Source of the DNA: Lachnospiraceae bacterium | Lineage (GTDB): Bacteria; Bacillota; Clostridia; Lachnospirales; Lachnospiraceae | Reading direction: 5' to 3' | Assembly (NCBI GenBank): GCA_030524635.1 | Contig: JAUNGG010000008.1 | Location: 17,817 to 81,816, forward strand | DNA length: 64,000 bases | Part shown: positions 47,114 to 61,809 of the stretch, piece by piece | Numbering within the stretch: the stretch's first letter is position 1 | Layout: each line of letters begins with the position of its first letter | Translations under genes and position numbers: made by a program | The notes under the pieces: generated by a model | Databases searched by the model: none | Told to the model about the DNA's origin: nothing | What the model saw: only the letters and a program-made list of their open reading frames with translations

Positions 47114-48073
47114 TCAGATTTTTTCATTTACAGAAAACATATATTCAAGATCTATGTAAGGAGTATCCTTTATTCCCTTTTCTTGAAGCCGTAAAACCAA
47201 TCCATCCAGGCATTTCTTCCAAAATACCTGGAATAATTCTTTATCCCCAAACTGCTTTACAAGAGCAGGGCTGACTGCATAATATATTTTTATAAAAATA
47301 CGCCCAATCCGCCTTTTTGCAAGCTTATCATCCCGAAATCTGCGCAGCGTCCAAACTTGCGGGCAATCATAGGAGCCATAGATACAGGTTGCAATATAGC
47401 ATCCCCTCTTCTCCCTTGATTGTGTCGCATCTGTCAGAGAAGATGGATTGGGCATTTCTGCCTTTATTATCTCTTCTGGCGCTTTTTTCTCCTTTTCTTT
47501 TATAAAATGATGAACCCGGTTCACTGGTGATGCAAGCGTTTCTGTGATCCGCTTTTTTATATATTCCTGATTGACTCCATAGAATGTCCACAATTTGATA
47601 ATCGGTATTCCAGCCTCCTCGCATATATTGGAAACCTTTTTATCCCTCTCCCGCCTTTCTTCTGTAAAATGGGTCTGATCATTAATCTCTATTACCAGCA
47701 AAGGCTTGTATAATAAATCTGTAATAAGGAAGTCAACATTCCGATATAGTTCATTCTGAAATCTTGCGCCATCCGTTCTTACAATAAAAGAAGCCAAATT
47801 GGCTTGTGCCTGAATCAAACAGTTTTCCGGTAGTACTCCTTTGATCGCATTTAAATATTTCATTTCCGTTGCCGTCACTAAATAGGGCCTTAATTCATAG
47901 AGAAATTTTTCTTTCTCCCCCACAATCGCTTTTTCTTCTGCACAGGGCATATTCGTATAATGCCATTTTTGACATTTCGGACACTTTATAATTTCACCGG
48001 TCTCTTTTTTCTTATTGCATTCCCTGCATAAAGGATATTTTCCGCTTTCAGCACCACAAACTTGGCATTTCAT
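47114..48073 (-). CDS. DUF2726 + CFI-box C-terminal domain protein, possible nuclease
   Basis: 319 residues. Residues 1-50 carry several CxxC/CxxxC pairs (two zinc ribbons, MKCQVCGAE...CRECN, KCPKCQKW). Residues about 75-185 match DUF2726, a predicted restriction-endonuclease-like fold (VDFLITDLLYKPLLVIEINDQTHF, then RRERDKKVSNICEEAGIPIIKLW). The last 95 residues form the CFI-box domain (CYIATCIYGSYDCPQVWTLRRFRDDKL...). AGGAGGTGATTTT precedes the ATG. It starts 88 bases after rdrB on the same strand and may be carried with the RADAR operon. Function not established. Confidence 0.75.
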   Translation of the reverse strand: MKCQVCGAESGKYPLCRECNKKKETGEIIKCPKCQKWHYTNMPCAEEKAIVGEKEKFLYELRPYLVTATEMKYLNAIKGVLPENCLIQAQANLASFIVRTDGARFQNELYRNVDFLITDLLYKPLLVIEINDQTHFTEERRERDKKVSNICEEAGIPIIKLWTFYGVNQEYIKKRITETLASPVNRVHHFIKEKEKKAPEEIIKAEMPNPSSLTDATQSREKRGCYIATCIYGSYDCPQVWTLRRFRDDKLAKRRIGRIFIKIYYAVSPALVKQFGDKELFQVFWKKCLDGLVLRLQEKGIKDTPYIDLEYMFSVNEKI

Positions 48074-48161: not shown

Positions 48162-51098
48162 TCACCCCAATTCCGGATCCAATCGATCTAATATTTTCCC
48201 TAACTCCTCCAGAAGCACGGCTGTGGATTTTACCGTCTGCACAAAGCTGGCATTCATACCATTCTGGCGAATCTTATCTATCCAGTTCAGGATATCCTCT
48301 TTTGCATAACCGCTGTACTCTGCCGCATAGTAAATGTAAGCCAGTTCATTTTCTACATTTGTGTTGAATACAGCCGGATCATCAGAGTTAACGGTAACCA
48401 GCACATGATGCTGTTTTCCGGACTGCGACTGTGCATTCAGACGGAAAATCGGATGTTCCCGGATATCGGAAAACTCACCTATTGTGAGATTGGAGGTTGG
48501 ATTCGTTTCTACATAGATTCCACGACGCTCCACCTTTTCCAATACGATTTCCTGCAACGCCTGATACAATGCGGCATTGGAGGCTGATATAGGAACCAGG
48601 ATGATTTCCCTGTACTTTTCCTCAAATGCCGGGCAATAAAGGGTACTGAGAAGCCGGTCGGCAGTCCACTGAGTGGGATAGAGACGGCATTTCTGCTTGC
48701 TATACCGGCAATGTACCCCATGCTTCTTTCTGTGCTTTGCCTCCCCGGCTTCTTTTAACAGCCCGTTCAGGATCGATTCATGGTTTGTCAAAAACTTTCC
48801 TTTATATGCCTTATAAAGCATCCTTACAGTAATCCCTTCTGTATGGGGATAAATCGCTTCTGCATTTCTTAAGATTTCCTCCTCCAGCCGCTCCAACTGA
48901 ACCGGAAGCTGGAATTCCTTACAAACTGCCAGTCCCCAAACCCACAGCAGATTATCCATATATTCCTGGCGCGGCATTGGAAGAATTTCATTATCAGAAA
49001 TCCATTTTTCGATATCAATTCCCAGGGCAATGCCGTGGCCTAAGCGGTCCCCGGGCTTATAATGAAATTCCTCTATCACCTCATCAATATGCCGCAGCCC
49101 TGACAGGATGTGACGGAAGTCCTCACCAACGTGATAGGTAAAGCCCAGATTCTGGATTAATTCGAACCGGCATCCATCCTGCGTAGGAATTGCCAGAACT
49201 GGCCGTGTCGTTTCCCTGGAACGAATCAGATTATAAACAGGAGAAAGCATCCAGGGTTCCATTGCATTTTCATCAGAAGCGGCGTCGATTCCCACAATAT
49301 AGGTATTCAATTCTGGAATTTCTGACCGGATCTCCTCGATTACCCTTGCAGCATGTATCATTTTCTGACGCATCGCTAACCGATGATTCGTATAGTCCAG
49401 CGTATTCCCCTCCAGACATCTCCAGCAATAATAACCGGATACATTATCCAGGCTTTCCTGCTTTATAAAATGAAACACAATTCCAAGTGTAGGGACACGA
49501 TAATCTTCTTCCAGTCCTCCAGGTTTTACGCAAAGCTCATAAAACAAATCCAGGTAAGAAAAATTCTTTTGAAATTTATGTCTTTTTTCTTCTTCCAGCC
49601 AGCGTCTTGCCTCTTTAACACCCAAAATATCCTCCAGAATGTATCTACGGTATAGGAACAGAAATGAGAACAACTGCTTTTTCAGCTGAAAAGTGATGAT
49701 TTCCCTACTGCCCTCGGCGTCAAAACAGTTCTGCATATTCGAATAGCCCTGAGGTGTAATCCGCACTTCTAACTTTTTTAAACTGGTAATTTTAGCCTGG
49801 GAGCGAAAGACATCCAGAGTCAGCCCTTCCCAGCCGGAGGCCCATACTTTTTTCGCTCTTGCAGTTCCAAAATACTGCTGAAAATGCCGCAAGCCAGGAA
49901 CGAGAAAGCGTTGCTGCATATGATAAAAAAAACGATTTTTAATCCGAAGGTATTGAAGAAAGCACCTGGCAAATGCAGTATCCCAGGGCCGATCCTTTAA
50001 ATAAGAACAGACATCATACAAAAAGAGGAATTCAGATGAGGTTTTCAACTCTACATACCCATCATAAACGGATGCCAGCAGGAAATCCGCTTCCTCCAGG
50101 GCAGAGGTTCCCTCCCAGATATCCCAAAACATATTCGGAATCAGATAGACCGTTTTCTCATCAAAAGTACCGGTATACAGATCCCGGATGCATTTCTCCA
50201 GAGTTCCGCTCCACTGGTCTGCAACCCAATGCTGAAACAAAACTGTTTTCCAGGCGCTTCCCTGGAGGAAAAGAGCTCCCAAGCAGCGGAATATGGCTGC
50301 CTGGCATAGATAAAGCTCCTCCGGGCTTTTGGGTGCAGCATACTGGCTACCGTCCCATTTTCCAACATGCACAGCCTGAATCCACAACATTTCATAGTCA
50401 AAGCCTGCGTTAAAATGAAGATGGTTTTCAGCCACTCCCTTGCTCAATATCTGGATCAGCAACTTATCCGCTAGGGAAATATTGGGTTTTTGTTCATATA
50501 ACGCTGATTTATCCCAGCCGCTATTGATGATAAAAATGACCACCAGAATATCCGGAATCATAAATCGGCACAGGATATTCCAAACTTCTATCTTATTATA
50601 GACATAGTTGGTATGGAAGATATCCTCGCCCAATTCATTTTTGTCATTATTCCAGGTTCGAATCGCCATTACTCCGTCACGGTAGGTCAAAAGGGAATTG
50701 GCAATTTTTTGCAGGTTTTTCAGATAAAACAAAGCAATGTTTTCTTCCACATCAGATTGATTTCCATTCGCCTGCTTCATCTCCTGTATTTCGGACATAA
50801 ATCGTTCCAGAGGAAGCAGCGGAAAGTAAAAATCGCACAGCCGCAGGATATCATCATACGACTTGACCCGTCCCTGATTTCGTGAGAAAAGGTAATTCAT
50901 CAATTCCTGATCTGCATTCCTGTAGTCCGAACTTTTTTCATATTTTTCCTCGGCCACAGAGGAATCGTCTAAATTCAGGCTCAAAAACCGTTGATAAGCC
51001 AGATGCTTATTCAGCAGAACATCCCTTTTCTGCAATCCCGGATCACAGTAGGGAAACAGCAGAACCTCCATAATCTGGTTAATGCGAAACCGATTCAT
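48162..51098 (-). CDS. rdrB: RADAR defence system deaminase RdrB
   Basis: 978 residues. A large protein with a divergent adenosine-deaminase barrel: the HxH metal motif ENHLHFNAG (His226, His228), the catalytic-Glu motif YHVGEDF (His656, Glu659), DRLGHGIALG (His688), a VETNPTSNLTIG strand and the metal Asp in VNSDDPAVF (Asp906, Asp907). About 400 residues separate HxH from the next motif, so there is a large insertion. In RADAR, RdrB works with the ATPase RdrA and deaminates adenine nucleotides (first reported on RNA) during phage infection. The gene overlaps the end of rdrA by 20 bases and has AAAGGGG before its ATG, so the two are translationally coupled. Confidence 0.87.
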   Translation of the reverse strand: MNRFRINQIMEVLLFPYCDPGLQKRDVLLNKHLAYQRFLSLNLDDSSVAEEKYEKSSDYRNADQELMNYLFSRNQGRVKSYDDILRLCDFYFPLLPLERFMSEIQEMKQANGNQSDVEENIALFYLKNLQKIANSLLTYRDGVMAIRTWNNDKNELGEDIFHTNYVYNKIEVWNILCRFMIPDILVVIFIINSGWDKSALYEQKPNISLADKLLIQILSKGVAENHLHFNAGFDYEMLWIQAVHVGKWDGSQYAAPKSPEELYLCQAAIFRCLGALFLQGSAWKTVLFQHWVADQWSGTLEKCIRDLYTGTFDEKTVYLIPNMFWDIWEGTSALEEADFLLASVYDGYVELKTSSEFLFLYDVCSYLKDRPWDTAFARCFLQYLRIKNRFFYHMQQRFLVPGLRHFQQYFGTARAKKVWASGWEGLTLDVFRSQAKITSLKKLEVRITPQGYSNMQNCFDAEGSREIITFQLKKQLFSFLFLYRRYILEDILGVKEARRWLEEEKRHKFQKNFSYLDLFYELCVKPGGLEEDYRVPTLGIVFHFIKQESLDNVSGYYCWRCLEGNTLDYTNHRLAMRQKMIHAARVIEEIRSEIPELNTYIVGIDAASDENAMEPWMLSPVYNLIRSRETTRPVLAIPTQDGCRFELIQNLGFTYHVGEDFRHILSGLRHIDEVIEEFHYKPGDRLGHGIALGIDIEKWISDNEILPMPRQEYMDNLLWVWGLAVCKEFQLPVQLERLEEEILRNAEAIYPHTEGITVRMLYKAYKGKFLTNHESILNGLLKEAGEAKHRKKHGVHCRYSKQKCRLYPTQWTADRLLSTLYCPAFEEKYREIILVPISASNAALYQALQEIVLEKVERRGIYVETNPTSNLTIGEFSDIREHPIFRLNAQSQSGKQHHVLVTVNSDDPAVFNTNVENELAYIYYAAEYSGYAKEDILNWIDKIRQNGMNASFVQTVKSTAVLLEELGKILDRLDPELG

Positions 51099-54000
51099 TC
51101 TGTACCCCTTTCAGCAGCTGGCTAATATAAGCATTCCGTCCCTTGGATGCACACCGATTCGCATAGGATTTCATAAGCGAAAGTCCCTGAAGCAATTCCT
51201 CCGCTATGGTTTGGATATTTTTTTCCGCACTATCTTCTTCCAGCAATGTCTCTTTTCTTTGGCTTTCGATTTGTACGAAAATTTCCTCCGGAATGATAGA
51301 TTCGCTGATTAACTTCTGAATGATCTGATAAAAACCATAATAGTAGGTTTGCAGACTATGCTCCTTTGAAGGATGCTCCTTCGGTGATTCTATTTCCTGA
51401 AGTCCTGCCGATGACATGCGGTAGTTATGTGAAAAGCCTTCTTTAATGGATTGGTACAAATAAATATTTTGAATTCGTTTTGCCAGCTGTACACTTAGCC
51501 CAACAATAACAGCGGCCTCCAATTCATTTGCCTTTTCCAGATTCACGGTTGCATCAAAGGCTTGCAGCATTTTCTTTTTGAGGGTGTGCAGACGATTAAC
51601 GACGTCGCGTGAGATGTTTTCACGAAGGCAGCTATCATCAATCAATATCAGCTCATCCTTTACTTCCCGGTACATGAGATCGACAAGCAGATCGGAGTCG
51701 ACACTTACCATTTCTGCCCAGTCTGCAAGACTGCTATATATGCTGAAGGACTCGTATATATTGCCAATTTGATAGGAGGCATTCAAGAATTTGGTGATAT
51801 CCTTGATCATAAGAGAATGCTCGCGGTAATCCCATTGTTCAATCGTCTCATACAAAACCTTCAGGATCAGCGCAAGATCTGTTTTATGGCCAATTCCTGC
51901 ATAAAGCCGGTCTCTTATATTGTAGAAAAGGTAAGGCGGACATTTGCCCAGCACATTTGCTAAGGTATCTTCCCTGCACTCAGTGTCAATTGTCTGAATC
52001 AGGTCTGTCATAGGGCAATTCCCCTGGAGTTTCGCATATTGATTATTCACCTTCTCCATAACCTTGCCGTGGTCCAGATCCGGGTGTTCTGCCTGTACCT
52101 GCTCTTTGATATCCTGCATGCGCCGTTTTCTCAGCGTTCTCTTGATTTTTCGGCAAAAGCTGTCAAAGTGCTTGCCTTCTGAATAATCAAGTTCGATTGG
52201 TAAATGCGAAATCTCATCATACGCGATTTCTTTTAGATTCGGCTGATCCAGGCAGTTCCGAAAGCCTTCCTGAAGCAGATAATAAATTGCACTTTGATAC
52301 CTGCATAAATTCTCGTCTGCGCGATAGGGTGAGCACACTGCCGCCTCATTACTGCCGATCAGATACAGATTGCTGTACACCAAAGTCGTGAGCTCCGCCA
52401 TCTCGGCAAACCATTCCCGGTCTTCTTTAAATAAGCGGTAAATGGAAAACAAATTCAATTCCGATTCCTGATAGGAGACATGAGCGAGACAGTGGAAGTA
52501 TTCTACATGAAACCTTTCTGGATTCTGTTCATAGCTTATCATATAGCTGATTTTGTCAAACAAATTTTCATAATGTGCAAAAAAATCGTTGGGATCCAGA
52601 TTGCTCCGAAACAGATGCATTCCGTGAAATACGTTTTTGGAAATAAAATCTGTAAACAGAGAAATTCCGTATACCTGCTTTCGATTTTCTAAAAGACAGA
52701 TGATATTTTCCGCAAAAAGCAGCAGCGAATATAACTCCATCACAATCTTAAGAATCGACTTGAGATCTTCACCGTTCTTTTTCTGAATTTTTTCCTTCAA
52801 AAAGTCTTCTAAAAAAGCATAATCAATATACATCGGCCATCCATTATGCTCGAAAAGAAAGATATCGTCAATAAATGCCTCCTTGCGTTCAATATCATCT
52901 GCCAGGTCATGGTTGGCGCTGATCGCTAACTGGAAGAAATGTCGAAAGCTGTAGAAAATCTGATTTCTGTATACAGAGATGTCCAATTGTCCTGCCTGAT
53001 ATGCTTGCAAAGCTCTCAACAGTGAATCAATTAATTTCTGTATGCCAAAATAGGTGTTGGCAATCTGGCGGGAGGTATCACCAAAAAAGTAAAAGTAAAA
53101 CCCAATAGGACGATCGTCATTCCACAAAAAATTTTTCCGACCGCCGCAGTTTTTGCAGTCTTCGTCAGCAGAATTCAGACACTTCTGACAGGAAGAGCAG
53201 ATTTGGCTGCGAAACTGTTCAATCAGCACATTCACAGCCTGTCCAAGGTTTTTATCATCCATATAAAAATTAAGCTTTCTGTTAACATCTGAAAACAGGC
53301 TCAGATAATATCGGGTAGAGGTAGGCATCACCTTGCCCAAATACAACCGGGCTGTTTGAGAAATCAAGTCTGATTTACTCTTTATGAAGCTCTGGGAAGA
53401 ATTTATGCCATAGGCCTTGGGTTGAAGATAAAGCCGCCATTCCTTGGGCAGCCGGCCAATATTTTTATCCAGATTATTTTCAATTACCTCCAAAAACATC
53501 TCTTCATCAGCAGTTGTCAGTACAATTACGTTCGGGTGAGACAGATATTTTATGATAATGGAAAGCAGCTCACTGACCTTCTCAGGCGCCAGATCTACAT
53601 CATCAAAAATAAAGTAAATCAAAGGACGTTTTCGGCGCTCCGGATCCGAAAATCCATTTTCCTGGCTTTCCTGGCGCTTCTGAATAATCGTAATCCAATC
53701 ATTCCAGAGAGAAGTAATCATTTGTGAGAATTCGTAATAGTTCTGGGTCTGCCGACTAGAATTTCCTACCGCCAGATGAAAGGCGGACTCTGAGGCAGGA
53801 TTGTACTTACCGGCAAAATATGTTTTAATCAGGTTGTCAACCTTTTGGGACAGGCTGGCTGATTTTCCACCAATCCCGGCTTTACAGTTACTCCAATCAT
53901 GGCAGGCTCCATTTCCAAGATCGAAGGTGTTCTGATTGGTTTCGTTTTCAAACTCCTGAACTCTCTGTTTCACGATGGCCAGCATCCAGCCCAGGACACT

Positions 54001-54351
54001 GCAATCAGAAGGAATCACTTCCGGTATAATGATTGGCATCACGATATCGTATGGATGTTGTTCATCTTCTTCGATTAAATTCCGCAAAGTAAAGGCAACG
54101 GAGGTTTTTCCGGTGCCTCTTTTCCCCAGAATAGAAAAGACATTATCATACATAAGATTGTACTGATAATGTCCCTGCTCCGGATCATCTAGTTTTATGT
54201 CCTGAATCCGATCTCGATGGGTTTCAATTTTACCGAGCAAATTTTTATAATCAGGGAATACATTCTCTAACTGGGTTTTACTGAAAATTCTGATTCCTAC
54301 TTTATGCGTCGGCGTAATTTTCTTTATCATATTCTCGTCCATTCCCATCAT
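51079..54351 (-). CDS. rdrA: RADAR defence system ATPase RdrA
   Basis: 1090 residues. Walker A is LGKRGTGKTSVAF (Gly76-Ser84), Walker B is YFIFDDVDL (Asp250-Asp253) followed by a sensor-like VIVLTTADEEMF. A cysteine cluster at residues 385-402 (CSSCQKC...CKNC) forms a probable zinc knuckle inserted in the ATPase part. The C-terminal 650 residues are helical without further recognised domains. RdrA of known systems is a STAND/AAA-like ATPase that assembles in rings and activates or feeds RdrB. GGGGAGG lies before the first of two ATG codons. An intrinsic terminator-like hairpin ends 18 bases upstream. Confidence 0.85.
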   Translation of the reverse strand: MMGMDENMIKKITPTHKVGIRIFSKTQLENVFPDYKNLLGKIETHRDRIQDIKLDDPEQGHYQYNLMYDNVFSILGKRGTGKTSVAFTLRNLIEEDEQHPYDIVMPIIIPEVIPSDCSVLGWMLAIVKQRVQEFENETNQNTFDLGNGACHDWSNCKAGIGGKSASLSQKVDNLIKTYFAGKYNPASESAFHLAVGNSSRQTQNYYEFSQMITSLWNDWITIIQKRQESQENGFSDPERRKRPLIYFIFDDVDLAPEKVSELLSIIIKYLSHPNVIVLTTADEEMFLEVIENNLDKNIGRLPKEWRLYLQPKAYGINSSQSFIKSKSDLISQTARLYLGKVMPTSTRYYLSLFSDVNRKLNFYMDDKNLGQAVNVLIEQFRSQICSSCQKCLNSADEDCKNCGGRKNFLWNDDRPIGFYFYFFGDTSRQIANTYFGIQKLIDSLLRALQAYQAGQLDISVYRNQIFYSFRHFFQLAISANHDLADDIERKEAFIDDIFLFEHNGWPMYIDYAFLEDFLKEKIQKKNGEDLKSILKIVMELYSLLLFAENIICLLENRKQVYGISLFTDFISKNVFHGMHLFRSNLDPNDFFAHYENLFDKISYMISYEQNPERFHVEYFHCLAHVSYQESELNLFSIYRLFKEDREWFAEMAELTTLVYSNLYLIGSNEAAVCSPYRADENLCRYQSAIYYLLQEGFRNCLDQPNLKEIAYDEISHLPIELDYSEGKHFDSFCRKIKRTLRKRRMQDIKEQVQAEHPDLDHGKVMEKVNNQYAKLQGNCPMTDLIQTIDTECREDTLANVLGKCPPYLFYNIRDRLYAGIGHKTDLALILKVLYETIEQWDYREHSLMIKDITKFLNASYQIGNIYESFSIYSSLADWAEMVSVDSDLLVDLMYREVKDELILIDDSCLRENISRDVVNRLHTLKKKMLQAFDATVNLEKANELEAAVIVGLSVQLAKRIQNIYLYQSIKEGFSHNYRMSSAGLQEIESPKEHPSKEHSLQTYYYGFYQIIQKLISESIIPEEIFVQIESQRKETLLEEDSAEKNIQTIAEELLQGLSLMKSYANRCASKGRNAYISQLLKGVQNESVSH

Positions 54352-54369: not shown

Positions 54370-54405
54370 AAAAAAGCCGGTTGAGGATTACCCCAAACTC
54401 CGGCT
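54370..54405 (-). terminator. Intrinsic terminator or attenuator between the 89-codon gene and rdrA
   Basis: Minus strand stem AGCCGG/CCGGCT with additional inner pairing (GTTTGGGG with CCTCAAC), followed by TTTTTT. The arms overlap the last codons and stop of the upstream small gene and end about 18 bases before the rdrA start codon. Confidence 0.75.
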
Positions 54406-54657
54406 TATTCTTAAAAATGCTTCCTTATCCTCTCGTCTGCTGACTGCCACTGTACCGTAGGCTTTATCATAGGCATCCTGATACTCTTCGAGCTTTTCTC
54501 TGACTTGGTGATAATGCTGACGTTTTGTCGAAGCAGGAGCAATGTGTGCTGCAACCAATGGCAGCTTTCCCATATTCGCTATGCCATTCGAGGATACTGC
54601 TTCCGTCAGCGGTACTAATTTTCGCCTTTTCCCATCATAAACCTCAACAATTACCAT
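54388..54657 (-). CDS. Small protein of unknown function leading the RADAR operon
   Basis: 89 residues, no recognised family. The sequence is soluble and mixed: a short beta-like start (MVIVEVYDGKRRKLVPL), a middle GNIANMGKLPLVAAHIAP-like region, and a basic helical C-terminal half (REKLEEYQDAYDKAYG, VSRREDKEAFLRISRSLG). AGGAGGTGATTC precedes the ATG and a near-consensus promoter lies 73 bases upstream, so it is very likely translated. It ends inside a terminator hairpin directly before rdrA, a place that suggests a regulator, sensor or toxin-like accessory of RADAR. Confidence 0.6.
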   Translation of the reverse strand: MVIVEVYDGKRRKLVPLTEAVSSNGIANMGKLPLVAAHIAPASTKRQHYHQVREKLEEYQDAYDKAYGTVAVSRREDKEAFLRISRSLG

Positions 54658-54729: not shown

Positions 54730-54758
54730 ATCATAGCAAAAAAATATGCAAATGTAAA
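54730..54758 (-). promoter_or_regulatory. Promoter of the small gene and RADAR operon
   Basis: Minus strand TTTACA (54753-54758), 17-base spacer, TATGAT (54730-54735) preceded by TGC (extended -10). Confidence 0.75.
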
Positions 54759-54855
54759 CGGCTTCTGAAAAAGCTTAGTAAAAACTTTACAAGAGTAACG
54801 CAAAAGAGTGCATGATACTGCACCGCCCGCCATATGCCGCATTAGCATCCTGTTA

Positions 54856-55440
54856 TTAATCAATATATTCATCCAGTGTTTTCATGTTGTCAGCAAAACG
54901 ATTCATATTATCCTCATAAATAGATAAAATGCGTTCCATAAACAGCTTTTCTTTCTCCTGAGATGTGGCTGCCTGCCTATAGACAGCCACATCATAAAGG
55001 AAGAGAATGATCTCTTGCCGGTATTTTTCTGCCGTAATTCTATGGCGCACCCAAGTCTGGCCATATCGACGCAGCTTCAGACGTTTCGTTTCAAAATGGC
55101 GGAAGCCTGCAACGGCTAAAGCTGCCACCCACAGAACGGCAAGCACCACGGTAAGGCCCCATTTCACCTGATCTGCAGTAGGAAAAACGGCCAAACAATA
55201 GGCTGCAATTGCCGTTATGGCAGCCATTCCATTAACAGGCAAAACCTTCTTCATAATCTCTTCTGCCTTGTCAGCGCCAGTACTGATTGCCTTAATCTGT
55301 ATAAGCTTTTGATTGCAGGAAAAATAATTTTCCTTATTTGTTTTTGCATGCTGTTCGTTGTAGGTTACCCAATTTTTGACAAGATTGAAAAAATCTTTAT
55401 TGCTTAATTTCGTTTCTAATTGATTTAGTAGTTGATCCAT
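54856..55440 (-). CDS. SLATT-type two-helix membrane protein
   Basis: 194 residues from the ATG at 55440 (GAGGGGAG nine bases before it). N-terminal amphipathic helical part (1-65), two membrane helices (about 70-87 and 93-113, MAAITAIAAYCLAVF and WGLTVVLAVLWVAALAV) separated by a short loop, and a long charged C-terminal helical tail (115-194) rich in Arg/Lys/Glu. This is the SLATT/DUF4231 layout, proposed as a pore-forming effector of nucleotide-signalled immunity. SLATT genes have been reported as optional parts of RADAR loci. It has its own intergenic regions on both sides. Confidence 0.75.
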   Translation of the reverse strand: MDQLLNQLETKLSNKDFFNLVKNWVTYNEQHAKTNKENYFSCNQKLIQIKAISTGADKAEEIMKKVLPVNGMAAITAIAAYCLAVFPTADQVKWGLTVVLAVLWVAALAVAGFRHFETKRLKLRRYGQTWVRHRITAEKYRQEIILFLYDVAVYRQAATSQEKEKLFMERILSIYEDNMNRFADNMKTLDEYID

Positions 55441-55563
55441 AGCGTTTTCTCCCCTCATTGAGTTTTATTATGCTCGATCGCTGCGTTTGTGGTTGCCATC
55501 TTGTTGATGACTTGGATAAGCGTGAACTTATTATACATGATTGTGCGGGGGAGTCCGAATGCA

Positions 55564-56082
55564 CTATGAAATAAATTTCCCTACTTCAAAGGAATACAGC
55601 ATAACCTCCAGACATTGTTTATCAACATTTCTATATTTTAAATGGTAGTTAATATGTTGTAAAAATTTTAAGAATTCGGCTTCCTTGTCTGAACTCAAGG
55701 GTTCTGTTTCCTCCGGAACTAGAAGCTCATGTGCAATAAAGGTAGTGGCAAAGCCTTCATTCGCAAAGACCAGTTTAGAATCGGAGGATTCGCTTTGGAT
55801 CTGCAGCGGTTTCCGCCTTAATATCCAAAACACTTCGTATGCAACAATTTTCGTAATATTAATATGCTCAATCTTATGGAATTCCTTCAATCGGTAGACA
55901 TCGGTAAAGTAATCCATTACTAATTGCTGCAGAATATCCTCATTGACCACAAGCTTTCCCTGCTGACTGCGTTCGTTAATGTATTCCTGCATTTTATCAT
56001 ATAAATACTTAAAACGCTCCTGAATCGTTTCTGTGCCAAAATAATTGACCACTGTATCATAACTCAACGCATTTTCCTGCAT
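55564..56082 (-). CDS. Unknown protein, third gene of the synthetase operon
   Basis: 172 residues from the ATG at 56082, chosen because GGAGGAAGAGG directly precedes it; it overlaps the preceding gene by 26 bases. Mostly helical, acidic, no membrane segment or metal motif: ERFKYLYDKMQEYINERSQQ, EDILQQLVMDYFTDVYRLKEFHKIEH, then FWILRRKPLQIQ and a C-terminal YHLKYRNVDKQCLEVMLYSFE. I recognise no family. Co-expression with a nucleotide synthetase suggests an antitoxin, sensor or adaptor. Confidence 0.65.
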   Translation of the reverse strand: MQENALSYDTVVNYFGTETIQERFKYLYDKMQEYINERSQQGKLVVNEDILQQLVMDYFTDVYRLKEFHKIEHINITKIVAYEVFWILRRKPLQIQSESSDSKLVFANEGFATTFIAHELLVPEETEPLSSDKEAEFLKFLQHINYHLKYRNVDKQCLEVMLYSFEVGKFIS

Positions 56083-56314
56083 CCTCTTCCTCCAACATAT
56101 GAATAACTTTTTTCCCATTTGCAGATTTCAAGAAATCACAATATGAAATATAATCCTTTTCTTCCAATTCACCTGAAAATTTTGCATAACTGTTCGGCAG
56201 TACATCCATAGCCAGGCTGCCGTTAGATATCTTTTCCATCAGGCGCTCGGCCCCTTTTTCTGCTTTGATTGAATTTAAGATTCGGGATTTTCCCCAAAAG
56301 CTGTTCATGTTCAT
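56057..56314 (-). CDS. Small unknown protein, second gene of the synthetase operon
   Basis: 85 residues; AAGGAG seven bases before the ATG. Starts MNMNSFWGKSRILNSIKAEKG and has an acidic C-terminal half (SGELEEKDYISYCDFLKSANG, MLEEEDAGKCVEL). It begins 15 bases after the synthetase stop codon and overlaps the next gene. No family recognised. Its position resembles that of antitoxins for toxic small alarmone synthetases. Confidence 0.6.
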   Translation of the reverse strand: MNMNSFWGKSRILNSIKAEKGAERLMEKISNGSLAMDVLPNSYAKFSGELEEKDYISYCDFLKSANGKKVIHMLEEEDAGKCVEL

Positions 56315-56328
56315 TTCTGCTCTCCTTA

Positions 56329-57261
56329 TCAGAATAATACTCTCATCTTAGCATGTAAATCAGGCTCACATTTTATATGATCTGTCGAGATCGTCTGTGG
56401 TTCCTTTTTCTCAACGCCTTTTTTCATAAAATTCTCCTGCTGAAAAGCTGATTCTTCATAAAAAGAAATCAACCGGTCGGCAGCCACTGCTAAGCTGCTT
56501 AAAATCCCTATATATTCCTGCTTTTGTCGATTATTCTGATCATAGGGATACTTGATGCGATGGTCAAATTCCAGCCAGCCCTCTTCAAAAAGAGTTCTTA
56601 CCTGAATTTCAAAATAAACAGTCGCATACCGTATAATATAATGTACAGAACGATAGTGGGATTTAGAATTATCAATCCTTAAATTCTCATCCCAATACAA
56701 TTCACGATCTTCTTCTGAGGTAATGTAAACCACAGGTTTTTCAGCATGATAACTGTTTTCCAAAAATTTCCGCTTGATATTTGCTTCATCACTGTATTTG
56801 TCATAATTCGTGATAATATCTTCCGGAATTGTGACATAACGTTCCGGTAAATTGCGGAATATCCGCAATAAACTATTATGCACATCCCGCCAGTCGCGTT
56901 TATCTAATATGATAATCCGAACGCCGATCAAATCTGTTATGATTTTATTGTAATTGTCTGCATTGATTGATTTGTATTTATCTGGATTTTTATTCACATT
57001 TCGAATAATTTTTTCAATCAAATGATCCGGATCCTTTACTCTGCATCGAATCGAATGTATCTTACCAGTAAGCTCTTCATTTAATGTCGAAAGAATTTCT
57101 GCTCTGATTTTATCCAATCGCGGACCGCTGGACTGAAAATCATGATATATTTTTTCTAATTCATGCTCATCAATTTGAGAATTATCAATACTTTTCTGCG
57201 AAATATCAAATGCCTTCTGAATTCTCTTCAAATCAAATTCTTTGTCAAATTCAAATGCCAT
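56329..57261 (-). CDS. RelA/SpoT-type nucleotide pyrophosphokinase domain protein
   Basis: 310 residues, a stand-alone synthetase domain without hydrolase, TGS or ACT parts. Conserved synthetase motifs are present: IHSIRCRVKDPDHLIEKI near residue 75, ITDLIGVRIII (Asp110, Arg115), the G-loop SHYRSVHYII (Tyr203-His207), FEIQVRT (Glu218-Thr223) and EGWLEFDH. It would transfer pyrophosphate from ATP to a nucleotide or, like some toxic relatives, to tRNA. GAGGAAAA stands before the ATG and a good promoter lies upstream. First of three overlapping or tightly spaced genes followed by the SLATT gene, which suggests a defence or toxin-antitoxin role rather than housekeeping stringent response. Confidence 0.85.
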   Translation of the reverse strand: MAFEFDKEFDLKRIQKAFDISQKSIDNSQIDEHELEKIYHDFQSSGPRLDKIRAEILSTLNEELTGKIHSIRCRVKDPDHLIEKIIRNVNKNPDKYKSINADNYNKIITDLIGVRIIILDKRDWRDVHNSLLRIFRNLPERYVTIPEDIITNYDKYSDEANIKRKFLENSYHAEKPVVYITSEEDRELYWDENLRIDNSKSHYRSVHYIIRYATVYFEIQVRTLFEEGWLEFDHRIKYPYDQNNRQKQEYIGILSSLAVAADRLISFYEESAFQQENFMKKGVEKKEPQTISTDHIKCEPDLHAKMRVLF

Positions 57262-57293
57262 ATTGTTTTCCTCTGTAATCTGGTGGTATGTTT

Positions 57294-57322
57294 ATCATAC
57301 TATTAGTTGATTGATTTTTCAA
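57294..57322 (-). promoter_or_regulatory. Promoter of the RelA/SpoT-type operon
   Basis: Minus strand TTGAAA (57317-57322), 17-base spacer, TATGAT (57294-57299), about 33 bases before the start codon. Confidence 0.75.
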
Positions 57323-58488: not shown

Positions 58489-59646
58489 ATGGCGATATAT
58501 CGCTGTACCGTTAAGATATTTCAGCGCAGCAAGGGCCGGTCTGCTGTGGCCGGATCCGCCTATCGCAGCGGCATGAAGCTGACAAACGAATGGGACGGAC
58601 AGACCCATGATTTTACCCGCAAGCGCGGTATTGTTCACACCGAGATCATGCTGCCGCCCCATGCCCCGCTGGAATTTTCTGACCGCTCTACTCTCTGGAA
58701 CAGTGTGGAGCAAATCGAGAAAGCAAAGGACGGCCCCCACACCCATATCATGCTGACAATCCGCCCACTGAAAGAATCCGGCGAATGGGGAGCCAAGTGC
58801 CGCAAGGTCTATGATCTGGACGAGCGCGGTCAGCGCATCCCGGACGGAAAAGGCGGCTGGAAAAACCACAGGGAAGATACAATCGACTGGAATGATAGAG
58901 GAAATGTGGAATTATGGCGCAAAGCGTGGGCGGACTATACCAATCGGGCACTGATTGCCGCTAATCAGCAGGAGCTGGTAGACCATCGCAGCTATAAACG
59001 TCAGGGCATTGATAAAATTCCCACCGCCCACATGGGCGTTGCTGCAACCCAGATGGAAAAGCGCGGCGTTCAGACCCGAAAGGGAGATTTGAACCGTCAG
59101 ATTGCCGCAGACAATAAGCTGCTGAAAGAGATCAAAGCCCGCATTACCCAACTTTACAACTGGTCGAAGGAAGAGGCCGCCAAGCCGCAGGGCAAGGACA
59201 GCATTATGAATCAGCTATGGCAGGCACAGCATGAAATGAACCACAGCGCCGCCTGCTCTAACTATGACAAAGCGAAAGCCTTGAAGCAGAGTGCCGCCCT
59301 GTTCAATTTCCTGCATGGCAACGGCATCACTTCCATGCAGCAGCTTCACGAAAAAATCTCCGCCATGAACGGCACTTACTATGACCTGCGCGGCCAGATT
59401 GTCAGCGGGGAGCGCCGGTTGAAAGTGCTGGACGAGCATTTGAAGATGTGGGCGCAATATGAAAAACACAAAGGAACCCGCCGCCCGGTATCTGGAAAAT
59501 CTGAAAGCCAGCGGCGAGCTAATCACGCCGAAGAAATGGCAGGCCGAGGCCGAAAAGCTGACCGCACAGAAAGATTTACAGTATCGGCAGATGAAAGCCA
59601 TGCGGGAGGAAATCAAGGCTGTGGAGAGCTTACGGAAAGCGGCTGA
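58489..59646 (+). CDS. MobA/MobL (MobQ) relaxase, internally deleted and frameshifted
   Basis: 385 residues. Nicks oriT and leads conjugative transfer when intact. Start MAIYRCTVKIFQRSKGRSAVAGSAYRSG and MAFGT-like AAGG site before the ATG are normal. But about 40 residues usually found between VEQIEKAK and the HUH histidine motif (here DGPHTHIMLTIRP) are missing, and after YEKHKGT (about 59480) the frame shifts, so the last 55 residues (RRPVSGKSESQ...) are out of frame. The catalytic Tyr region at the start and the HTH histidines remain. Probably inactive. Confidence 0.8.
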   Translation: MAIYRCTVKIFQRSKGRSAVAGSAYRSGMKLTNEWDGQTHDFTRKRGIVHTEIMLPPHAPLEFSDRSTLWNSVEQIEKAKDGPHTHIMLTIRPLKESGEWGAKCRKVYDLDERGQRIPDGKGGWKNHREDTIDWNDRGNVELWRKAWADYTNRALIAANQQELVDHRSYKRQGIDKIPTAHMGVAATQMEKRGVQTRKGDLNRQIAADNKLLKEIKARITQLYNWSKEEAAKPQGKDSIMNQLWQAQHEMNHSAACSNYDKAKALKQSAALFNFLHGNGITSMQQLHEKISAMNGTYYDLRGQIVSGERRLKVLDEHLKMWAQYEKHKGTRRPVSGKSESQRRANHAEEMAGRGRKADRTERFTVSADESHAGGNQGCGELTESG

Positions 59647-59698
59647 ACAGCTTGCCAAGACCGAGCAGACCACGAAAAAGGAGGAACACGAGTTATAA
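59459..59698 (+). pseudogene. Frame-shifted C-terminus of the relaxase
   Basis: Carries the natural relaxase ending in another frame: AARYLENLKASGELITPKKW, EAEKLTAQKDLQYRQMKAM and a Lys/Glu-rich end. It overlaps the main ORF, and together they represent one original gene with a deletion at about 59480. Confidence 0.7.
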
Positions 59699-59752
59699 GC
59701 ACAGAAACGCCGCCGTACAGAAAAACTTCCTATGCGGCGGCCAGAATCTTTG

Positions 59753-60043
59753 CTATTTACCGAACAAGTCGCTGTGTGTTCCAGTGCGGGCTAAGGTCAG
59801 CACCAGTACATCATCCTCAATGCGGTAGACCAGCAGCCAATCCGGGAGGATATGACACTCACGGTGTCCCACCCAATTCCCGGACAAGGCGTGATCTTTG
59901 TTCTTTTCCGGGAGCGGTTCGCCCATTGCAAGAGCAGCAACCACATCCTCTAACAGCCCAATTTTTAATCCGCGCTTCATTGCCAGCTTGTAGTCTTTTT
60001 TGAATTGCGTGGTGGGCTTAACAGTGTACTTTGTTTTCCTCAT
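59753..60043 (-). CDS. yafQ: YafQ/RelE-type mRNA interferase toxin
   Basis: 96 residues. RelE-superfamily toxin that cleaves mRNA on the ribosome. Family landmarks: VKPTTQFKKDYKLAMKRG, EPLPEKNKDHALSGNWVGHRECHILPDWLLVYRI and LTLARTGTHSDLF, with the catalytic histidines of YafQ (HALSG, HREC, THSDLF). It follows its antitoxin with a four-base overlap, the usual order. Intact. Confidence 0.92.
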   Translation of the reverse strand: MRKTKYTVKPTTQFKKDYKLAMKRGLKIGLLEDVVAALAMGEPLPEKNKDHALSGNWVGHRECHILPDWLLVYRIEDDVLVLTLARTGTHSDLFGK

Positions 60044-60318
60044 GCTTTCAGGTCTGCGAACAGCTCATCCAGATCGGTATATCCTTTCACAGACGGATCT
60101 TTCGCAATCCTTTCCGCTTCCAACATGGCGGCAATCGTTTCCTTGTTGGGCTGATTCAAAGAAATGTCAAAAGGAATCCTGCCCTCACGGAGCGACTGGC
60201 GGACAAAGATATTGAACGCTGTGGACAGGTTCATACCGAGTTCTCCAAACAGGGCATCGGCCTGCGCTTTCAAATCCGAATCCATGCGGATGCTGATATT
60301 TGTGGTAGAGCCAGCCAT
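60040..60318 (-). CDS. dinJ: DinJ/RelB-type antitoxin
   Basis: 92 residues from the ATG at 60318 (AAAGGAGATGG before it). Ribbon-helix-helix N-terminus (TTNISIRMDSDLKAQADALFGELGMNLSTAFNIFVRQSL) and an acidic C-terminal toxin-binding tail (TDLDELFADLKA). Neutralises YafQ and represses the pair. Stabilises the mobile element in which it lies. Confidence 0.92.
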   Translation of the reverse strand: MAGSTTNISIRMDSDLKAQADALFGELGMNLSTAFNIFVRQSLREGRIPFDISLNQPNKETIAAMLEAERIAKDPSVKGYTDLDELFADLKA

Positions 60319-60424
60319 ATAACCATCTCCTTTCGTGCTGGTGATTATAGTATATGCCATCTGCACGAAAAACGCAATGCTTTGCACGAAAAATCAACAG
60401 CAAATTTATTTTCAAGGAGGCAAA

Positions 60425-60601
60425 ATGCAGAAATTGATTTTAACAATCTCGATTACCATACAAATCCCGGAGCCGCCTATGCCGCCCACGCCAGCCAGTG
60501 CAAAAAAGCCGGAGCCGGTTTTTGCAAAGCAGCAGCCGCCTGTGTGCCGCCACCATGAAGCGAATCAAGGCTGCCGAGCGCAAGCGGAAACAAAGGGCTA
60601 A
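60425..60601 (+). other. Small possibly broken ORF of the mobile element
   Basis: AAGGAGG five bases before an ATG opens MQKLILTISITIQIP..., a Pro-rich 58-codon frame. One base off, the same DNA reads DFNNLDYHTNPGAAYAAHAS and QCKKAGAGFCKAAAACVPP, which looks more protein-like and would follow from one missing base after the third codon. I suspect a small element gene with a frameshift; no family recognised. Confidence 0.3.
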
Positions 60602-60646
60602 ATGTCACGCTTTAGGGGCTGAAAAAGCTGATGTGATATAAAAAAG

Positions 60647-60676
60647 TTGACAGCTTATTCTCAAGGATTTCATAAT
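60647..60676 (+). promoter_or_regulatory. IS3 promoter with a hairpin over the orfA ribosome site
   Basis: TTGACA (60647-60652), 18-base spacer, CATAAT (60671-60676). CTTATTCTC (60654-60662) pairs with GAGAATAAG (60685-60693), which abuts the GGAGG of orfA; readthrough transcripts from outside could thus hide the ribosome site. Confidence 0.5.
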
Positions 60677-60705
60677 AAAATCAAGAGAATAAGGAGGTAC
60701 TCAAA

Positions 60706-61038
60706 GTGGCACGTAAATATGATCATGAATACAAAGTACAGGCTGTAAAACTGGCAAAAGAAATCGGTGGCGCTAAGGCTGCTAAAGAATTGGGGATTCC
60801 GGAAGGAACCATCCATACATGGCTCAAAGCGGTCAGAGCCGGTAAGTTGGACATCGGTGAAGGAGCCCATACTCCCACCAGCGCAATGAGCCTGGCAGAA
60901 GAGATTACGATGCTTCATAAACGTGTCAAGGAGCAGGATAAAGAAATCCGTCGCTTAAAAGAGGAAAACGAGTTTCTGGAGGAAGTCAGCACTTTTTTCG
61001 CAGCCAGCCGTCGGAAGTCAGTAAAAACCAGAGAATGA
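60706..61038 (+). CDS. IS3-family transposase OrfA
   Basis: 110 residues beginning with GTG (AAGGAGG upstream). Helix-turn-helix (DHEYKVQAVKLAKEIGGAKAAKELGIPEGTIHTWLKA) followed by a leucine-zipper-like coiled coil (SLAEEITMLHKRVKEQDKEIRRLKEENEFLEEV). Its stop overlaps the orfB start as ATGA. Intact. Confidence 0.9.
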   Translation: MARKYDHEYKVQAVKLAKEIGGAKAAKELGIPEGTIHTWLKAVRAGKLDIGEGAHTPTSAMSLAEEITMLHKRVKEQDKEIRRLKEENEFLEEVSTFFAASRRKSVKTRE

Positions 61039-61809
61039 TGTTTCTCGCTCTCAAGACAGAGGCTGGCAGGATCAAAGGGAAAATTGCATTCTATTGCTGC
61101 ATGCTTGGTGTCAGCTGTCAGGGATTCTATAAATATTTCGCCAATAAAGACCGCCCATGGAAGTATCAGGGTCTGCTCATAAAGCAGCCGGATGGGATCC
61201 ATATTCCCAGCGAACGGACTGTGTACAGAGTCGTGGATCAGATTGGTCTTAGCCATCGTCCAAAACACAAACCAAACGGAATTACAAAAGCCAACCGGGA
61301 AGCGATGAAATCTGATGATCTTTTAAGGAAAGATATTCACTCCGATGCCCCGCTGGAAAAATGCGTCACAGAGATCACAGAGATCAAGGCAGCGGATGGG
61401 AAGCTATATGTATCAGCAATTTTTGATTGCTTTGATCTTGGCGTCCTCGGTCTTGCGATGGAGACGAATATGAAAGCTGTTGTGTATCCATACATTAGAG
61501 AACGCACTGACTGCCTATCCGTCTTTGAAAGGGGCCACTATCCATAGTGACCGTGGAGCGCAGTATACCAGCGAGATTTACCGTCAGGCCATTAGCAAGC
61601 ACGGTATCTGCCAGAGCATGAACAGTGCCGGAGGTCGGTGCCATGATAATGCACGCTGCGAAAGTATGTGGGCACGGACGAAGACCGAACTCCTATACGA
61701 TCGCTACGATACAGAGCAAATGACAGTAGAAGAATTGAAGGTACTGGTATGGCGCTACTTCATTAGCTACTGGAATAACCGGAGGATACCGCCGAAAATC
61801 CCATGCTGA
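61035..61809 (+). pseudogene. IS3-family transposase OrfB, broken
   Basis: DDE integrase reading in two frames. Frame one runs MMFLALKTEAGRIKGKIAFY to about 61480; after a one-base change near 61479 the second frame continues CIHTLENALTAYPSLKGATIHSDRGAQYTS to RYFISYWNNRR. About 25 residues are missing after RPWKYQ, the first catalytic Asp is Glu (VTEITEI where the family has TDITEI), and the C-terminus is cut. Inactive. Confidence 0.85.

Follow-up and report, generated by a model that had tools for sequence, protein, structure and literature searches.

Toxic small alarmone synthetases (toxSAS) are restrained by small structured antitoxins. The sections of PMC11782079 used here describe ATfaRel2 as such an antitoxin, crystallised as residues 1–73, and FaRel as encoded in an unusual operon with an antitoxin gene on each side, two in all. 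In the Panacea systems, as presented in part of PMC8832971, one antitoxin domain (PanA, DUF4065) serves either toxSAS or membrane-depolarising toxins. Part of PMC2686095 gives the Fic motif as HPFx[D/E]GN[G/K]R and names AvrB as a known Fido-fold protein lacking it. Here we describe a three-gene cassette encoding a RelA/SpoT-type synthetase and two small proteins, s85 and s172 (named by their length in residues), in a 64,000-nucleotide stretch from a Lachnospiraceae bacterium (contig JAUNGG010000008.1, positions 17,817 to 81,816; hereafter the window). We consider it probable, at roughly 60%, that the cassette is a toxin-antitoxin-type growth switch in which a predicted toxic synthetase is held off by s85 and s172. 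The literature searched contained no description of the synthetase-s85-s172 arrangement.

An initial annotation of the window had joined these three genes and a downstream SLATT-like membrane protein gene into one module. All four are real open reading frames (ORFs) on the minus strand, where the gene order is synthetase, s85, s172, SLATT-like, an 89-residue ORF, RdrA and RdrB (Table 1). The tight three-gene operon was largely borne out, with a 26-base overlap between s85 and s172 as stated and a synthetase-s85 gap of 14 bases rather than 15; s172 and the SLATT-like gene are 105 bases apart. A genome scan seeded with the s172 alignment yielded 66 loci; being centred on s172, it measures the share of s172 genes that are accompanied by a synthetase and not the share of synthetases accompanied by s172. 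A homologous synthetase lies beside s172 in 48 of them (split in L029, partial in L032), and an ORF fills the s85 place between the two in 47 of these 48 by position and in the remaining one (L017) on a second look; the s85-place ORFs were chosen by position, and phmmer with the window s85 recovers 16 of the 48. Since the same gene order is found in 48 other loci, a chance arrangement is ruled out. Where at least 1 kb upstream of s172 was available (63 loci), 47 loci had the synthetase and 10 a membrane protein gene. The synthetase loci belong to Bacillota in 47 of 48 cases, with one unassigned. In a family-wide search, s172 was present in 20 of 397 genomes, with an adjoining synthetase in 16 of the 20, the window's own genome included; of the four others, L085 is a variant, L086 is truncated, L087 is degraded and L088 is a fragment of 56 residues. 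Across the phylum, s172 was present in 2 of 398 genomes, including the window's. Pairwise distances of the three cassette proteins correlate with r = 0.92, 0.85 and 0.92 (41 full trios), and none of 999 permutations reached such values, a correlation that shared descent alone could explain. We conclude that synthetase, s85 and s172 are a genuine conserved stand-alone module.

Variants of the cassette were also seen. An s85-like ORF stands ahead of the synthetase, with s172 after it, at L083:313-570 and L084:2942-3133. At L078:1225-2031 s85 is shortened and reads through in frame to s172, as a natural fusion or a decayed copy. The L085 variant (1471-2597) consists of a 111-residue ORF with a hydrophobic stretch, a 63-residue s85-like ORF and a divergent s172, and a lone s172 at L059:2392-2937 is flanked by apparent fusA and tuf frames. 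A long s172 frame in L017 was discarded as an out-of-frame extension.

RelA_SpoT is the only Pfam family that the synthetase matches above its cut-off (52.3 bits; cut-off 27), and the synthetase domain is present without a hydrolase domain, as the initial annotation had it. Residues R72/R74/K76, D110, YRSxH at 203–207, E218/Q220/R222, W229 and D233/H234 are invariant in an alignment of 24 close relatives; we take them to be the catalytic motifs, in line with an alignment to solved small alarmone synthetase (SAS) enzymes. The cassette resembles the toxSAS systems (FaRel2-ATfaRel2, FaRel, CapRel and PhRel2) in that a stand-alone RelA/SpoT synthetase adjoins a small partner gene. It differs from them in having two partner proteins, neither with a confident match in Pfam, PADLOC or NCBIfam, and perhaps in the synthetase itself: its model matches SAS folds with the RelQ/RelP-type, housekeeping SAS enzymes nearest, and its family profile found no match among PDB chains at E 0.01. 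In the pseudo-zinc-finger-domain (pZFD) antitoxins ATfaRel2 and CapRel, a YXXY motif blocks the ATP site. Sixteen of 48 synthetase-paired s85 contain YXXY (shuffled mean 5.8, maximum 15), as do 5 of 11 of the membrane-anchored partners described below.

No synthetase was found in 18 of the 66 loci, two of which (L010, L019) end at a contig edge. In ten of the 66 (L036, L038, L039, L042, L043, L044, L049, L056, L058 and L064), a small protein with several transmembrane (TM) segments is followed by a TM-anchored partner and then by s172; the phylum search added an eleventh case, L090. The membrane protein in the synthetase's place has 151–181 residues and 2–4 predicted TM segments in all eleven, and the ten loci include one each of Spirochaetota, Synergistota and Thermodesulfobacteriota. 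L054 retains the TM partner only, and L006, L011, L023, L059 and L067 have neither the membrane gene nor the TM partner. The profile of soluble s85 is related to that of the TM partners (hhalign 95.9%, E = 5.5e-9, 68 columns), against 0.1% when s85 was compared in this way with the membrane proteins, and the s85 hidden Markov model matches 6 of 11 TM partners below E 0.001 and the other five not. A simple hydropathy scan predicted no TM segment in any of the 48 s85 paired with a synthetase (the window's and 47 others), against one in 11 of the 15 s85-type ORFs from synthetase-free loci, the exceptions being L085 and L091–L093; the 11 scanned TM partners, all with a TM segment, include those of L054 and L090, and L049 was left out of the scan. 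On the s172 tree, built from 69 rows, switching between the two effector types takes two changes or more, although a single change may have sufficed. Panacea is the closest precedent for such an effector swap. It differs from the cassette on two counts: with the E limit set at 1, the window s172 has no Pfam match, hence none to DUF4065, and in the cassette a separate small protein, s85, switches between soluble and membrane-anchored forms along with the effector.

The s172 protein is the constant part of both locus types, with 14 residues identical in 35 of 35 rows spanning the synthetase and membrane types; 11 of the 14 are still invariant in a wider 17-row set comprising L085 and the viral-collection copies. 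Among the matches to its modelled fold, Doc entries came first and second and a Fic protein third. Foldseek gave no match to s172 below E 1 in the PDB, nor did a fold search of BFVD, and s172 found no match in GenBank phages with two queries or in plasmids with one. A PHROG match to a virion protein (E 5e-4) was set aside. A small gene followed by a gene with a Doc-like modelled fold recalls the layout of phd-doc, and s85-s172 could accordingly be read as the core toxin-antitoxin pair, a small antidote with a Doc-fold toxin, to which the synthetase or membrane gene was added as effector or modulator. We regard this as unlikely. The Fic motif (HxFxxxNxR) is absent from all 69 s172, hhalign detected no relation of s172 to an alignment of nine Doc relatives, and 57 of the 63 loci with at least 1 kb upstream have an effector gene.

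The growth switch proposed above, with the synthetase as toxin, best fits a device whose effector can be exchanged, whose adaptor matches the effector and whose gatekeeper stays the same. When released, the synthetase would move pyrophosphate from ATP onto a nucleotide or onto tRNA ends, so that growth stops. The s85 protein would act as the effector socket, in a soluble or a membrane-anchored form to match the effector, and s172, with a Doc-like modelled fold and invariant residues of its own, would serve both types as gatekeeper, holding the complex inactive until a trigger such as phage infection sets it free. The identity of the neutralising small protein, the release trigger and phages as the target are what we infer here. 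The same view agrees with an alternative raised in the initial annotation, a toxic small synthetase and its antitoxin beside a RADAR-associated SLATT gene (RADAR, phage restriction by an adenosine deaminase acting on RNA), which fits the gene order and distribution; the toxicity is a prediction. On three viral-collection contigs (L091–L093), s85 is followed by s172 with no recognised effector beside them. By sequence reading, the L093 pair precedes HNH and terminase genes, the L092 pair precedes portal and protease genes, and L091 resembles a bacterial or plasmid region. Such effector-free pairs fit an antidote carried off by phages or a self-sufficient pair. More tentatively, and with less confidence than we place in the switch, s172 may have a Doc fold around a remodelled active site and act as the universal gatekeeper of interchangeable killers, alarmone-type enzymes in some bacteria and membrane proteins in others, through s85 adaptors of matching soluble or membrane-anchored form, the killer-free pair being taken by phages as an antidote. 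If correct, the growth-switch reading would give the toxSAS field a branch with three components, two of them from families without a confident match in the three databases named above. Related regulator pairs standing beside either a soluble enzyme or a membrane protein would form a natural experiment on one antitoxin with unrelated toxins, and counter-defence would be a candidate role for the pairs found on phage-like contigs.

We also asked whether the cassette might be a regulated alarmone synthetase for stress signalling, with s85 and s172 as allosteric regulators and no toxin role. The housekeeping character of the closest SAS folds speaks for it, as does the diversity of the genes around the cassette: among 152 neighbours of at least 100 residues, counted without a control set, no family occurs in more than four, and few match defence models. 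Among the first 25 families listed, the matches were to DpdF, RmrA, PsyrT, Gabija and some candidate PDC families, each with one or two proteins, besides generic mad3/mad8 matches in two or three neighbours; no defence partner recurs. Against it stand the patchy distribution (20 of 397 genomes of the family) and the membrane protein that occupies the same slot elsewhere, which an alarmone regulator leaves unexplained. Furthermore, the window's genome encodes five RelA_SpoT proteins besides this one, including a 779-residue frame, so the cassette synthetase is accessory. Stress signalling is quite improbable. One related synthetase of the same genome (L002, G000:C49:24022-24756; 39% identity) has no s172 within the 3.7 kb fetched, and a viral synthetase scan gave eight loci, none of whose contigs is among the s172-bearing ones.

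The SLATT-like gene was assigned to the neighbouring RADAR-type operon, outside the cassette. Its protein scores E 4.6e-5 with NCBIfam SLATT_1 and E 2.8e-4 with Pfam DUF4231, neither match reaching the curated cut-off. A homologue is present in 0 of the 66 s172 loci (48 with synthetase): over L001–L068, phmmer recovered the copy in the window and nothing else. Downstream of s172, at least 1 kb was available in 42 of the 48 synthetase loci. Homologues occur in 4 of 299 family genomes, all within the 11 that are RdrB-positive (p = 1e-6; 2.7e-5 without the window's genome). In all three other SLATT genomes, none of which is among the 20 with s172, the gene is part of the RdrB operon. It comes immediately after RdrB in two of them (L133, L134); in the third (L135) it precedes a 425-residue gene, which is followed by a large ATPase-like ORF in the position of RdrA and then by RdrB. 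The large ORFs of these operons were called RdrA by place and size, with no phmmer match to the window RdrA. The neighbourhood statistics thus gave the two results named beforehand in the initial annotation as speaking against its four-gene module: the four genes do not co-occur elsewhere, and SLATT follows RdrB. A conserved module with SLATT is rejected on these grounds, and the synthetase, the two small proteins and SLATT as one alarmone-to-pore system resembling CBASS (cyclic-oligonucleotide-based antiphage signalling), which had been that annotation's central proposal, is highly improbable, resting on an adjacency seen in the window only (one strand, the 105-base gap, no clear terminator between). 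The SLATT gene here goes to RADAR instead of to a new signalling system.

The RADAR-type assignment follows from an RdrA-like ATPase adjoining an RdrB-like deaminase, here with SLATT. The pair is strongly divergent, with matches below the NCBIfam cut-offs: RdrA has a PADLOC E of 5e-7 and 29.4 bits in NCBIfam (cut-off 600), and RdrB a PADLOC E of 6.2e-37 and an NCBIfam E of 1e-57 (196 bits; cut-off 800). SLATT-associated RADAR (rdrABCD) is a subtype described in the part of PMC7699616 used here, and the window resembles it in having RdrA-like, RdrB-like and SLATT genes in one operon, with SLATT before RdrA as in L135 rather than after RdrB as in L133 and L134. RdrB is over-represented with s172 (4 of 14 s172-positive versus 7 of 285 other genomes; p = 0.0008, or 0.0066 without the window's genome), assuming that genomes numbered above G298 lie outside the 299-genome set. 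The window RdrA has one homologue in the 66 s172 loci, in L047 (contig G028:C32), where some 6 kb separate a synthetase cassette from the RdrA-RdrB pair that comes after it, and no SLATT was seen. A gene of 425–458 residues stands ahead of the RdrA-place ATPase in L132, L133, L134 and L135, and none in the window. A Cetobacterium plasmid (L089) carries an RdrB that is 33% identical, preceded by a 1027-residue-sized gene. A DUF2726 and CFI-box protein gene at 47114-48073, 88 bases after RdrB on the same strand, may be a RADAR accessory.

Table 1. Features in and around the cassette, in window coordinates.
Feature	Coordinates	Strand	Length (residues)	Reading
Synthetase, RelA/SpoT-type	56329..57261	-	310	Pfam RelA_SpoT; predicted toxic effector of the cassette
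s85	56057..56314	-	85	Predicted adaptor or antitoxin
s172	55564..56082	-	172	Predicted regulator; Doc-like modelled fold without Fic motif
SLATT-like membrane protein	54856..55458	-	200	Assigned to the RADAR operon, outside the cassette
ORF between SLATT and RdrA	54388..54657	-	89	May not be a gene
Divergent RdrA-like ATPase	51079..54351	-	1090	Neighbouring RADAR-type operon
Divergent RdrB-like adenosine deaminase	48162..51098	-	978	Neighbouring RADAR-type operon
Candidate cassette promoter TTGAAA-17-TATGAT	57294..57322	-		Consensus scan, 10/12 matches; weak

The start of s172 was placed at 56082, since most listed homologues have 170–175 residues and align from there; a longer frame of 184 residues opens at 56118. 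The scan counted 23 promoter-like sites, whereas shuffled versions of the scanned stretch averaged 11.0, which makes the candidate cassette promoter weak. A second such site (54730-54758) precedes the 89-residue ORF, and a terminator-like site lies at 54807-54824; matches of both kinds are common in shuffles. The 89-residue ORF has no confident family match in Pfam, PADLOC or NCBIfam and no homologue in L001–L068. On the other side of the cassette, a mobile-element region at 58489-61809 was recognised by reading of ORFs alone, with a MobA/MobL-like relaxase frame at 58489, a YafQ/DinJ-like pair at 59753-60387 and IS3-like transposase frames at 60706-61809.
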